Below are positions 3,527-20,080 of a stretch of DNA of 20,275 nucleotides, one piece after another (position 1 is the stretch's first letter; each line of letters starts with the position of its first letter). The DNA is from a virus. Under the pieces are notes generated by a model, which worked only from the letters and a program-made list of their open reading frames with translations, was not told the DNA's origin and did no database searches. Made by a program: the position numbers and the translations under genes. The DNA lies in the IMG/VR virus record IMGVR_UViG_3300045118_000009, positions 1-20,275 of that record; one strand, written 5' to 3'.

Positions 3527-3931
3527 TTATGAGTACCTGTACCCCTTAATTATCACCTTGGCGACAGCCTCGGTGTCATTAGCCGCAGAGCAGACAATCT
3601 TGATTTCCTTGCCTACTGCGGTATAGAACTTGCCGTTAGGAGTCGTGGCGTCTATGTAAGTGCCACACTCCGCCACAGCGTCACCGTAAACGGTATTGGC
3701 GGCGCCCTTGGCACTAGCCGCAAGGATGTACCCGTTGGCTGAGTCATCGTCACCAACCGTTAAATCAACGCCACCGGCAGCACGGACAGCCGGTGTGACC
3801 ATCAGGACAGTCACCTTCTCGATAACGGACTGCGCCTGAATGGTGTAAACGTCAACAGCCGTGGTGCTGTTGGTCTGCACCTGAACACACTCATTGATGA
3901 GGTAAATGGGTCTCTGGTTCACTACTGCCAT
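3527..3931 (-). CDS. Probable capsid decoration protein
   Basis: The 134-aa protein directly follows the major capsid gene with a 17-base gap and a strong AGGAGG ribosome binding site. It is beta-rich, with VYTIQAQSVIEKVTVLMVTP near residues 28-47, a GGVDLTVGDDDSANG turn, and KIVCSAANDTEAVAKVIIKGYRYS at the end. No membrane segment or catalytic motif is seen. Small beta proteins encoded just after the capsid gene in phages are often decoration or stabilisation proteins present in many copies. This call rests on position, size and composition, and a head-completion role is the main alternative. Confidence 0.6.
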   Translation of the reverse strand: MAVVNQRPIYLINECVQVQTNSTTAVDVYTIQAQSVIEKVTVLMVTPAVRAAGGVDLTVGDDDSANGYILAASAKGAANTVYGDAVAECGTYIDATTPNGKFYTAVGKEIKIVCSAANDTEAVAKVIIKGYRYS

Positions 3932-3948: not shown

Positions 3949-4869
3949 TTAGTCCTTGACACCGATAAGGGCGGCACGAGCGACCACGGAGTAGTCACAG
4001 AGGCCGCAGTACCACTTGATACGGGTTCTGGTGGCGTCCTTGGTTTCAAGAGCGCCGACTTCCTCGACCTGAATACCCTGGTTCTGTATGCCCATCAGCT
4101 TGCCCTCACCGAATTGCAGGGCGTAGATGGTGCTGGAAGTGTCGCCGGTATATGCGGTCTCGACTGAAGCGAGAAGGGTGTGGGTGTCCAGTATCCAGTC
4201 GGAAACACCAATCGGGATGTCGTTATAGGTGGCAACGAGCGCACCGAAACCATCCTTGATGTAGCCGAGCTGTGCGCCACCGAGCGCACGGACGAGAGCG
4301 GTAATCTTCCGGCGTGACCGCTTGCTCATCAGGAGCATATCCGGGGGGCCGCCTTTGACGGCGTCAATCAGTTGGTCAACCATTGCGAGTGTCAGCGTGG
4401 CGCCGGTAGCACCTGCGGCGATAAGCTGGGAAGAAGCAGTGGCCGTGTCAATGAGTTTCGCAAGACCGCTGAACTCCTTGGGGTTGGTGGTAGCATTGCC
4501 GTAGATGAAGGTGTCCTCAAACTCATGGCGGAGAGCCTTGGATTTGAGTTCGATTACGGCAGCTTTCAGGTCCTGTATGTTGCTCCGGGTCTGTTGCAGG
4601 TACTTGTCAACATCAGCATCACCGCCGAGAATCTTGAGTGTGGAACTGAGCTGGGTGAATGTCGGGGTGGACTCGTTCCATGTGTCACCGACATCGAACC
4701 AGTCAACCGTGGCCATTGCGTTTTCACGGTTATAGGTAAGGGCGTTGCCGTTGATTTCGGCAAACGGGAGTCTTTGAAGGATAGGCGAATCCTTCACGGT
4801 TGTCTCGATAACGCCTTTTACAAGGACATCATTCGAGAGTTTTGCCGCCTCGACTAAAGTCATTGCCAT
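3949..4869 (-). CDS. Major capsid protein, HK97-like fold
   Basis: The 306-aa protein has the expected features of phage major capsid proteins of this size class. The N-terminal helix MTLVEAAKLSNDVLVKGVIE is followed by ILQRLPFAEINGNALTYNRE. Then come the conserved-looking LGGDADVDKYLQQT, with a long helix ELKSKALRHEFEDTFIYG (E-loop/spine region). DMLLMSKRSRRKITALVRALGG follows around residues 180-200, and the C-terminal TRIRIKWYCG-like segment has VVARAALIGVKD. The ribosome binding site AAGGAG precedes the ATG. It is flanked by the scaffold gene upstream and a decoration-like gene downstream, which is the typical order. It should assemble into the icosahedral shell. I am confident in the fold family but not in the exact subfamily. 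Confidence 0.88.
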   Translation of the reverse strand: MAMTLVEAAKLSNDVLVKGVIETTVKDSPILQRLPFAEINGNALTYNRENAMATVDWFDVGDTWNESTPTFTQLSSTLKILGGDADVDKYLQQTRSNIQDLKAAVIELKSKALRHEFEDTFIYGNATTNPKEFSGLAKLIDTATASSQLIAAGATGATLTLAMVDQLIDAVKGGPPDMLLMSKRSRRKITALVRALGGAQLGYIKDGFGALVATYNDIPIGVSDWILDTHTLLASVETAYTGDTSSTIYALQFGEGKLMGIQNQGIQVEEVGALETKDATRTRIKWYCGLCDYSVVARAALIGVKD

Positions 4870-17511: not shown

Positions 17512-17869
17512 ACAGGCCTCCGTTGCAGTCGCAGGGGATATAGTCGTGAACGTTATAATCGGGGTAATTGGTGACGGTCTCGGTGTAGCCGCACCCTCCG
17601 CACTTCTCACAATGGGGTCTGGTGGCGGGGGACGGAGTCGAACCGCCTGTCTCAACCGTATGGGGGTTGCGAGATGCCGTTTCTCTACACCCGCTACGCT
17701 TCCTCTTCCCCTTCTTCACCTCAACCACCTCCCCCTCCTTGCTCTTCTCCAGCAGCACCCTCGCTATATACGCCGGCCCCGTGTTCACTCCGCTTACCGT
17801 TGCCTTACCTACTCCCTGCCCCTTCAAATACTCCCGGTACTCTTCTACGCTCATGTGCCTCGTACTCAT
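17489..17869 (-). CDS. ORF with C-terminal zinc-ribbon, interrupted by a tRNA-like gene
   Basis: The 126-aa frame has three parts. Residues 1-57 (MSTRHMSVEEYREYLKGQ and a basic end KKGKRKRSG) look like a normal phage protein N-terminus. Residues 59-84 (ETASRNPHTVETGGSTPSPA) are the translation of a tRNA-Met-like gene on the same strand and have the look of tRNA read as protein. Residues 87-115 carry CEKCGGCGY and later CDC, a zinc-ribbon-like set with Cys at 87, 90, 113 and 115. The frame stays open throughout. Either the tRNA landed in or joined two gene pieces, or the frame is open by chance and only one end is translated. An internal ATG at 17854 is an alternative start. No strong ribosome binding site is present. 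Confidence 0.5.
   Translation of the reverse strand: MSTRHMSVEEYREYLKGQGVGKATVSGVNTGPAYIARVLLEKSKEGEVVEVKKGKRKRSGCRETASRNPHTVETGGSTPSPATRPHCEKCGGCGYTETVTNYPDYNVHDYIPCDCNGGLYAKTDNA
17620..17694 (-). tRNA. tRNA-Met-like gene (anticodon CAT), imperfect acceptor
   Basis: On the minus strand the 75 bases fold as a tRNA: D arm GAGA-AACGGCA-TCTC with the GG of the D-loop; anticodon arm CAACC-CCCATAC-GGTTG with CAT at the anticodon; a 5-base variable region; T arm GGCGG-TTCGACT-CCGTC with the standard TTCGAnT loop; and an encoded ACCA end. Odd points are C instead of T at position 33 and an acceptor stem that pairs at only four of seven places in the standard register. GCGGG/CCCGC pairs well if shifted by one base, leaving an A-C mismatch at the end as in initiators. 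It may be a diverged phage tRNA or a pseudo-tRNA. Met is read from the anticodon; tRNA-Ile2 cannot be excluded. Confidence 0.6.
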
Positions 17870-18631: not shown

Positions 18632-18649
18632 AACACGGCGGAAGTGGTT

Positions 18650-18781
18650 TTGTACGGTTGTACGGTCGCTTGTTCGGTTGTTCGTGATTTGTTCGTAAGC
18701 GTTTTGACTTGTCCGGCGTTGTACGGTGACTTGTACGGTCGGTTTTTGTGCCTAGACCCTTGTTTTGTTGTTTTGTACGGT
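18650..18781 (+). repeat. Iteron-like array, consensus TTGTnCGGT
   Basis: TTGTACGGT occurs exactly at 18650, 18658, 18719, 18731 and 18773. Variants are TTGTTCGGT at 18670, TTGTTCGT at 18678 and 18689, and TTGTCCGGC at 18709. The first two overlap by one base, giving an 8-base tandem step. Nine boxes in 132 bp, all in one orientation, facing three inverted ones at 18548-18576, look like binding sites for a replication initiator or a cooperative regulator. Confidence 0.65.
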
Positions 18782-18811
18782 CAGAATGGCACAGGCGGAG
18801 ATTGATATTAT

Positions 18812-18831
18812 TTTATTCGTGGTTTATTCGT
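18812..18831 (+). repeat. Two TTTATTCGT boxes, plus orientation
   Basis: TTTATTCGT is repeated at 18812-18820 and 18823-18831 with an 11-base step, one helical turn. The first continues with G to match the minus-strand box at 18490-18481 over 10 bases. They lie about 30-50 bases upstream of the rightward -35 element, a usual place for an activator site. Confidence 0.5.
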
Positions 18832-18861
18832 AGAGGTTTTGGGAAATAGTAGCAAGGGGTA

Positions 18862-18890
18862 TTGACAAGTAGCATATTATCTGCTAACCT
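18862..18890 (+). promoter_or_regulatory. Rightward promoter with operator-like palindrome
   Basis: A perfect -35 TTGACA (18862-18867) is followed after 17 bases by TAACCT (18885-18890), a weak -10 with the essential TA and final T. Between them, TAGCA-N7-TGCTA (18870-18886) forms a perfect palindrome filling the spacer and touching the -10. An extra AGTAGCA lies upstream at 18848-18854. The arrangement suggests repression by a dimeric DNA-binding protein. The promoter leads to the gene starting at 18935. Confidence 0.55.
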
Positions 18891-19206: not shown

Positions 19207-19219
19207 GCCCCTAGAGGGC
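19207..19219 (+). promoter_or_regulatory. Short hairpin before the second rightward gene
   Basis: GCCC, CTAGA, GGGC forms a 4-bp G/C stem with a 5-base loop, 9 bases after the stop of the 87-aa gene and just before the AAGGAG of the next. No T-run follows. It belongs to a series of hairpins that precede each gene of this operon. Confidence 0.4.
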
Positions 19220-19235: not shown

Positions 19236-19589
19236 ATGAACAGCACAGTAGTAACCAACAAGGAGCAATTGTTCTGGGTGCAGGTGGTAACACTAGGCCG
19301 GGCAATTTGGGCGCAGGTACAGGCGGTCGGCCCCAAGGAGTTGGCGAACGAGGCAAAGTCATCTGACTCTACCACCCTTATTGGTTGGGTGGAGAGTACC
19401 GACAACACTCCCGGCGGGGTGTTATTCGAGAAGGTGGTCAGGGATAGTCACCGGCTGGTTCGCCTGCACATGACTGATTATCCCGAATATTTGGCTCTAA
19501 TGGGGAACTTGACCTCCTACACTATGGAAACCATTCAGAAAGCGCAGAGGGATTTACGGAACAACAACCCGCAAATATTCCTCAAGTAG
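19236..19589 (+). CDS. Hypothetical protein, 117 aa
   Basis: The ATG follows AAAGGAG at a suitable distance, 37 bases after the previous gene. The protein begins MNSTVVTNKEQLFWVQVVTL, with an aromatic, mixed N-terminal part. It then has SDSTTLIGWVESTDNTPGGV, a basic segment VVRDSHRLVRLHMTDYPEYL, and a C-terminal amphipathic helix (METIQKAQRDLRNNNPQ). There is no transmembrane span. I do not recognise the family. It is co-oriented with, and probably co-transcribed with, the 87-aa and ArdA-like genes, so an early accessory function is likely. The gap after it contains the hammerhead-like RNA. Confidence 0.65.
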   Translation: MNSTVVTNKEQLFWVQVVTLGRAIWAQVQAVGPKELANEAKSSDSTTLIGWVESTDNTPGGVLFEKVVRDSHRLVRLHMTDYPEYLALMGNLTSYTMETIQKAQRDLRNNNPQIFLK

Positions 19590-19592
19590 TTA

Positions 19593-19653
19593 GCCGATAA
19601 TCGGGGCATCACGCCCCGATTCGTGAGGATTGACCCACTCACGCTGATGAGGC
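19593..19653 (+). ncRNA. Hammerhead-like (type II layout) RNA element
   Basis: Three helices meet at a hammerhead-like core. Stem III is ATCGGGGC/GCCCCGAT with loop ATCAC (19600-19620), followed by a single T (position H17 of an AUU site). Stem I is CGTGAG/CTCACG (19622-19627 with 19638-19643), and its 3' strand is followed at once by the exact CTGATGA core (19644-19650). Stem II is open: GGC (19651-19653) pairs with GCC (19593-19595). The departure is in the third core strand: between GCC and stem III lies GATA, where a canonical hammerhead has GAA, so activity is uncertain. It sits 4 bases after the 117-aa gene stop and upstream of the ArdA-like gene. Confidence 0.45.
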
Positions 19654-19654
19654 A

Positions 19655-19678
19655 GGTCACCTGACCCAGATAGCTGGG
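19655..19678 (+). promoter_or_regulatory. Two mutually exclusive hairpins before the ArdA-like gene
   Basis: GGTCA-CC-TGACC (19655-19666) and CCCAG-ATAG-CTGGG (19665-19678) share two bases at 19665-19666, so they compete to form. They lie between the hammerhead-like element and the ribosome binding site TAGGAG of the next gene. No T-run is present, so a terminator is unlikely; a role in mRNA stability or translation is possible. Confidence 0.35.
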
Positions 19679-19704
19679 CAGGAAAAGAATAGGAGAGTAA
19701 GAGA

Positions 19705-20046
19705 ATGGCAACCAGAGCAATCAGCAACACTGAGGACAAGCTAAACACCGAGGACCTGAGGAAATACGCCGAGGAGCTGGAGGGAACGGAAGACCCGGAC
19801 GAACTCGAGGAACTCAAGGCGCTCACCGACTTGCTGGAGCAGATAGGGGACGAGGATGGGGAGTTAATCAGGGATTCGTGTTTCGTGGAATATGCCCAGG
19901 AGCTAGCCGAGGAAACAGGCGCACTCCCGGAAAAACTGAGCTGGCCGCTGTATAACATTGACTGGCAGGCGGCAGCCCGTGACCTCCAAATGGATTATAC
20001 GGCGGTTGAGTTCGCCGGCGTGACGTATTGGTTTAGAGAGTATTAA
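19705..20046 (+). CDS. ArdA-like antirestriction-type protein (C-terminal region only)
   Basis: The 113-aa protein is strongly acidic. Its N-terminal half is a Glu/Asp-rich helix region (TEDLRKYAEELEGTEDPDEL; ELKALTDLLEQIGDEDGE). From residue 50 on, LIRDSCFVEYAQELAEETGAL, then WPLYNIDWQAAARDL and VEFAGVTYWFREY follow the pattern of the last domain of ArdA proteins (an EYAQELAE helix, a DWxAxARDL helix, a final YWF strand). ArdA mimics DNA and blocks type I restriction enzymes. Full ArdA is about 165 residues, so this is shorter and may be a separate family sharing that end. The ribosome binding site is TAGGAG. A defence-evasion role is inferred from fold resemblance and acidity. Confidence 0.65.
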   Translation: MATRAISNTEDKLNTEDLRKYAEELEGTEDPDELEELKALTDLLEQIGDEDGELIRDSCFVEYAQELAEETGALPEKLSWPLYNIDWQAAARDLQMDYTAVEFAGVTYWFREY

Positions 20047-20053
20047 GTTTCAC

Positions 20054-20080
20054 GCCCTGCGGGTAGATACTACCGGGGGC
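20054..20080 (+). promoter_or_regulatory. Two-part hairpin before the last gene
   Basis: GGTAG-ATA-CTACC (20062-20074) forms a perfect 5-bp inner stem, and GCCC (20054-20057) with GGGC (20077-20080) forms an outer one. It lies directly after the ArdA-like gene and before AGAGGAG. No T-run follows. It resembles the hairpins in the other gaps of this operon. Confidence 0.45.

Follow-up and report, generated by a model that had tools for sequence, protein, structure and literature searches.

What is the structured element that lies within the early operon of this virus, in the 115-base gap between the stop codon of a 117-aa ORF and the start codon of a 113-aa ArdA-like gene? A reading of the DNA without database searches (the sequence-only reading) noted two perfect hairpins separated by a single T, with CTGATGA next and GGC/GCC closing a third helix, and it proposed a type II hammerhead ribozyme that could be a variant, a degenerate copy or a coincidental fold. 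Of these, the evidence selects the variant: stems and pseudoknot are intact, model scores are high and the same core change recurs elsewhere. We consider it highly probable that this RNA acts in cis as a type II hammerhead ribozyme whose core has gained a U (U13a), and that it is carried in the early polycistronic mRNA, where it is predicted to cut before the ArdA gene. Its membership of the type II hammerheads, as judged by sequence and structure, appears close to certain, and self-cleavage is predicted to be likely. The element is a single ribozyme of a known phage kind, and its core variation is rare and previously described.

Anatomy of the element and its place in the early operon

The anatomy and the gene context can be read directly from the window, i.e., the whole 20,275-base viral record analysed here, in which the element lies on the early-gene strand (Table 1). 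Every component that the sequence-only reading had listed is present at 19593-19653, and all 17 stem pairs are standard (6, 8 and 3 bp in stems I, III and II). Stems I and III are capped by hairpin loops, stem II is open and all three adjoin the core, which is the arrangement that defines the type II class; together with the family model scores described below, this bears out the proposed layout. The CUGANGA strand and the NUH site (AUU) are both in place, the closing pair of stem III is followed directly by an H17 residue other than G, and G12, A13 and A14 are all present. The element does not pass the strict filter of Perreault et al. (2011), which admits no insertion or substitution in the core, as U19598 is inserted. 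A further feature, absent from the earlier description, is a pseudoknot of 5 bp (TGACC/GGTCA) that joins loop I to the bases just 3' of stem II. Natural type II hammerheads possess such a loop I/stem II-tail pseudoknot, which is needed for fast cleavage (PMC3088659); in the majority of them it has 4 or more pairs.

Table 1. Positions in the window of the predicted ribozyme, its parts and its neighbours
Feature	Coordinates	Strand	Basis
Type II hammerhead ribozyme (predicted), core variant U13a, 3' pseudoknot strand included	19593..19659	+	models R2 and R1
Stem II 5' strand GCC, pairing with GGC at 19651-19653	19593..19595	+	sequence, pairing check
Core G12, A13, U13a, A14 (GATA): G19596, A19597, inserted U19598, A19599	19596..19599	+	R2 alignment, single-base insertion
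Stem-loop III, 8 bp: strands ATCGGGGC (19600-19607) and GCCCCGAT (19613-19620), loop ATCAC (AUCAC in RNA, 19608-19612), closing pair A15.1-U16.1 (A19600-T19620)	19600..19620	+	sequence, pairing check
Predicted cleavage site, H17 = U19621 (T19621 in DNA), cut between 19621 and 19622	19621..19622	+	H17 position in model alignment
Stem-loop I, 22 nt, 6 bp and 10-nt loop: strands CGTGAG (19622-19627) and CTCACG (19638-19643), loop GATTGACCCA (19628-19637)	19622..19643	+	sequence
Pseudoknot strand UGACC in loop I, pairing with GGUCA at 19655-19659	19631..19635	+	family covariation in the same columns, pairs checked
Core strand C3 U4 G5 A6 N7 G8 A9 = CUGAUGA	19644..19650	+	sequence
Stem II 3' strand GGC	19651..19653	+	sequence, pairing check
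Pseudoknot strand GGUCA, 3' of stem II	19655..19659	+	family covariation, pairs checked
Additional hairpin of 9 bp with one bulged A, 3' of the ribozyme and 5' of the ribosome-binding site	19660..19682	+	pairing check
Ribosome-binding site AGGAGAG of the ArdA-like gene	19691..19697	+	sequence
117-aa ORF, function unassigned	19236..19589	+	stop codon ends 3 nt upstream of ribozyme
113-aa ArdA-like anti-restriction ORF, 3' of ribozyme	19705..20046	+	Pfam and PHROG matches

The 113-aa ORF matches the Pfam ArdA family with 29.8 bits (cut-off 27) and the PHROG anti-restriction family with 33.7 bits, and its product has phage relatives of up to 46-50% identity. A pattern scan returned zero relatives of the 117-aa protein, zero similarity was found between the window DNA and named phages, and no intrinsic terminator was found near the element. 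Upstream of the first early ORF, TTGACA and TAACCT are separated by 17 bases at 18862-18890; the -35 of this promoter-like pair is perfect and the -10 is weak, and the pair is absent from the promoter scan listing. Short direct repeats (TTGTACGGT, TTGTTCG/TTATTCG types) are clustered at 18640-18850, between the divergent gene blocks and upstream of the early operon, and it is possible that they are origin or operator sites. A tRNA-Met gene (CAT anticodon) lies on the minus strand at 17624-17694, where it overlaps an ORF call; it was found by ARAGORN and by a relaxed Rfam search (37.1 bits) and was overlooked by the fast gathering mode of Rfam.

Covariance models and the type II family

Family membership was established directly by scoring the window against two covariance models, R1 built from 16 canonical elements and R2 from 150 type II hammerheads with the GAAA core only; the window and all U13a elements were excluded from both. 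The stretch 19593-19661 scored 53.2 bits with R1 (E 8e-13; second best in the window 11.2) and 51.7 bits with R2 (E 7e-14; second best 13.3), where the E-values are rough but background lies about 38 bits lower. R2 detects a single hammerhead in the window. Its alignment calls for a single added base, a U that follows A13 and precedes A14, and marks two further departures from the family: U at position 17 in place of the usual C, and U-A as the second base pair of stem III (15.2-16.2), a pair that is C-G in 144 of 148 family members.

The search with Rfam models that had been proposed as a check came out differently. Hammerhead_II gave a best alignment at 19592-19661 of 16.9 bits (E 0.17) in an 85-base query, which is 20 bits under the 37-bit cut-off, and gathering and relaxed scans of 73, 501, 2,576 and 20,275 bases left the hammerhead unlisted. 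A sub-threshold score was among the outcomes that the sequence-only reading had said would count against it, and formally that is what Rfam returned. Since a naive reading of Rfam would have been "not a hammerhead", positive controls were run. The U13a elements of two other viral contigs (L366 and L404) pass the Rfam cut-off, and the fast mode dropped a match above the cut-off (L404, 46-113, 40.2 bits) that was seen in another Rfam scan. Because the element is unlisted in the broad scans and scores 16.9 against 37 bits in the short query, Rfam alone neither accepts nor excludes it. The family-level models and the pseudoknot outweigh the sub-threshold Rfam score and the missing orthologous copies. 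Matches to the archaeal snoRNAs sR1, sR2 and sR28 (9-13 bits) were set aside as chance.

Pattern scans of viral and bacterial contigs followed by a structural-descriptor filter yielded 335 distinct candidates, including the window, and the element sits comfortably among them. Its 22-nt stem-loop I is of the commonest length (139 of 335), and its GCC/GGC stem II is likewise the commonest (244 of 335), although the scan patterns favoured GCC/GGC. A gapless set of 16 shows covariation in each of the three stems and in the pseudoknot, with 97.3% of cells paired and a covariation score of 0.642 against 0.241 for shuffled sets (slid controls 0.08-0.17). Among the 131 members with a 22-nt stem-loop I, the four core pseudoknot pairs are 94% paired, as compared with 76% when the tails are randomly reassigned (maximum 79%). 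The 150 model-aligned members have stems that are 99.1% paired, with 654 double changes, in an alignment that was fitted to the structure and is biased toward it.

Covariation had also been proposed as a check in related phages, but no convincing hammerhead was found in 18 terminase/ArdA-relative records and five phage ArdA loci. Close relatives by ArdA or terminase thus offer no orthologous copy in which stems could be compared, formally a second of the outcomes that the sequence-only reading had said would count against it, and the compensatory changes are seen across the family only. For the same reason, the ribozyme does not appear to have been inherited with the ArdA gene.

The inserted U and competing readings

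How should the GATA strand be read? The sequence-only reading had allowed for either one extra base or a change of A14. The best reading, as the alignment suggests, is a U between A13 and A14 (U13a), and not an A14 change. Other U13a elements have A or C at position 17 and are unable to form the alternative register (a 9-bp stem III, A14 changed to U and no proper H17), which was rejected on this ground. A U inserted in the GAAA strand is a natural hammerhead core variant (Perreault et al. 2011, PMC3088659), and the element is therefore filed as a core variant and not as canonical, U19598 being inserted.

Recurrence of U13a was observed directly. Six further viral contigs have it, namely L366, L373 (two elements), L404 (two elements), L418 and the near-identical pair L152/L406, and these elements always have full stems and a pseudoknot of 4-6 pairs. 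They resemble the window in having the GAUA insertion at the same place, the type II layout and the pseudoknot, and differ from it in their stems and neighbouring genes. In a scan with a free 5' core, two of 50 newly gained elements had GATA, and none of the 50 had any other insertion. The example of U13a described by Perreault et al. (2011; Figure 5), matched by its description, has the same insertion as the window.

One alternative to an active ribozyme is that the element is a true type II descendant that has lost useful activity through the extra core base and the altered base at the cleavage site, so that only its stable hairpins remain. The inserted U, U17, the unusual second stem III pair and a Rfam score 20 bits below the cut-off are all compatible with such decay, and some hammerhead-like RNAs with core changes are inactive (Perreault et al. 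2011, PMC3088659). One would expect such decay to wear away stems and pseudoknot alike, whereas here all 17 stem pairs are preserved, as is the 5-bp pseudoknot. Moreover, the insertion recurs with all else intact in the six other viral contigs, of which two are near-identical, and the authors of the 2011 study expected U13a to bulge outward and to be near neutral, doing little harm (PMC3088659). A degenerate, inactive or nearly inactive hammerhead is thus an unlikely account of the element, and a variant ribozyme that would still cleave remains the preferred one.

A second alternative is that the gap holds ordinary intergenic mRNA hairpins, with roles in RNase processing, mRNA stability or translational insulation, that resemble a hammerhead by coincidence. 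Other gaps of the operon do have short hairpins directly 5' of the ribosome-binding sites of neighbouring early genes (19207-19219 and 20062-20078), although these lack a hammerhead core, and strong structure extends to the entire gap (z -3.67). Coincidence is nevertheless very improbable given the model scores of 52-53 bits and the rarity of the motif. A motif with stems III, I and II of at least 8, 6 and 3 bp arose once in 32,472 shuffled windows, and its core insertion was a C; the shuffles preserved dinucleotides, covered the whole window on both strands and permitted any single inserted base in the GA-A strand, and the pseudoknot was not even required. The remaining alternative is a palindrome that works as DNA, for example as an operator, an origin or a site of recombination. 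It draws on the ability of two adjacent palindromes in phage DNA to bind proteins and can be practically dismissed, since conservation of the pseudoknot and of the unpaired core (CTGATGA, GA-A) follows the needs of an RNA, across unrelated phages, on the coding strand and between genes.

The isolated 61-nt stretch folds into the three-way junction at -25.1 kcal/mol (z -2.7). An unconstrained fold of the full gap counts narrowly against the hammerhead: the minimum (-42.1 kcal/mol) places the pseudoknot strands in a nested helix and the hammerhead fold reaches -41.3. The latter is weaker by 0.8 kcal/mol with the pseudoknot uncounted, and the pseudoknot would probably tip the balance toward the hammerhead.

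Position 17 is U, A or C among the U13a elements. It is other than C in four of six U13a contig groups, as compared with six of the 48 canonical elements that one scan supplied (p 0.008 by Fisher's test, a post hoc comparison). One might speculate that U13a hammerheads are a distinct, recurrent phage sub-class in which the inserted U and the non-C cleavage base jointly tune the rate of mRNA cutting, making it slow or regulated, and do not reflect chance drift, but we regard this idea as doubtful.

Predicted mRNA processing and relation to known hammerheads

By analogy with the family, we infer that the element is transcribed and active, where it cuts, and that it has a role in mRNA processing. 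It would be transcribed within the early polycistronic mRNA, where the 5-bp pseudoknot may lock loop I to the 3' tail of stem II and keep stems I and II next to each other, as the active geometry demands. The early transcript would then cut itself between U19621 and C19622, i.e., 32 nt past the end of the 117-aa gene, with 83 nt left to the start codon of ArdA. The upstream product would end in the strong, GC-rich 8-bp stem III with a 2',3'-cyclic phosphate, and the ArdA mRNA would carry a 5'-hydroxyl and begin with the pseudoknotted stem-loop I. A possible purpose of the cut is to separate the two messages so that their stabilities are set independently.

The placement of the element fits that of the family. 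When ORFs around the 335 hammerheads were assigned mechanically, 303 had the end of a same-strand ORF within 300 nt upstream. Measured against the base that opens stem II, the median offset of this end is -1 nt, with quartiles of -6 and +1, and translation of the following gene would start at a median of 28 nt 3' of stem II; the corresponding values for the window are -3 and 51 nt. The genes downstream of the hammerheads are varied early genes. Among the genes 3' of about 280 hammerheads searched with Pfam, ArdA was in one half the family met most often (3 of 138, including the window) but was rare overall, and we therefore do not claim a general link between hammerheads and ardA.

Like the type II hammerheads of Rfam RF02276, the element has the permuted order II-III-I, the CUGAUGA strand, A15.1-U16.1, a short GCC/GGC stem II and the pseudoknot, and these too are intergenic in phage operons and sometimes directly upstream of ardA. 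It differs from them in the extra U between A13 and A14, the U in place of C at the cleavage site, and the U-A in place of C-G at the second stem III pair. Hammerheads occur immediately upstream of ardA in Legionella and, as a triplet, around ardA in Agrobacterium tumefaciens, and the Agrobacterium set cleaves in vitro and in E. coli (PMC3088659). These resemble the window in lying beside ardA in phage-like DNA, a likeness in arrangement, and the A. tumefaciens triplet contrasts with the single detectable hammerhead of the window.

The hammerhead-before-ardA arrangement is thus repeated in another phage, and the element, which is overlooked at standard Rfam thresholds, adds a well-placed natural case of a rare variation in the core. 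The recurrence of U13a across several viral contigs and this new case suggest that variant-core hammerheads in phages are under-counted. The element also offers a clean test case for the cost of a core insertion in a hammerhead that retains its pseudoknot.

A canonical type II hammerhead in contig L017 (IMGVR_UViG_3300014887_000011) was first found solely through the stem-loop III that it shares with the window, and it was the only match to a pattern combining that stem-loop with the hammerhead core. The two share the 17-nt stem-loop III (CGGGGCATCACGCCCCG / CGGGGCAUCACGCCCCG), stem II GCC and the pseudoknot, whereas L017 has a GAAA core, C17 and a 9-bp stem I. No protein similarity was detected between the flanks of the L017 element and the early genes of the window.

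Type II hammerheads of phages, such as those in L121, L203, L250, L272, L324 and L379, are often present in many copies per contig, each 5' of a small gene; L121 carries about a dozen. In L185, a contig with a type II hammerhead, twister-P1-like matches were observed at 4668-4735 and 3766-3835 (59.1 and 47.3 bits; cut-off 67.2), and possibly different ribozyme classes occur within one phage operon there.
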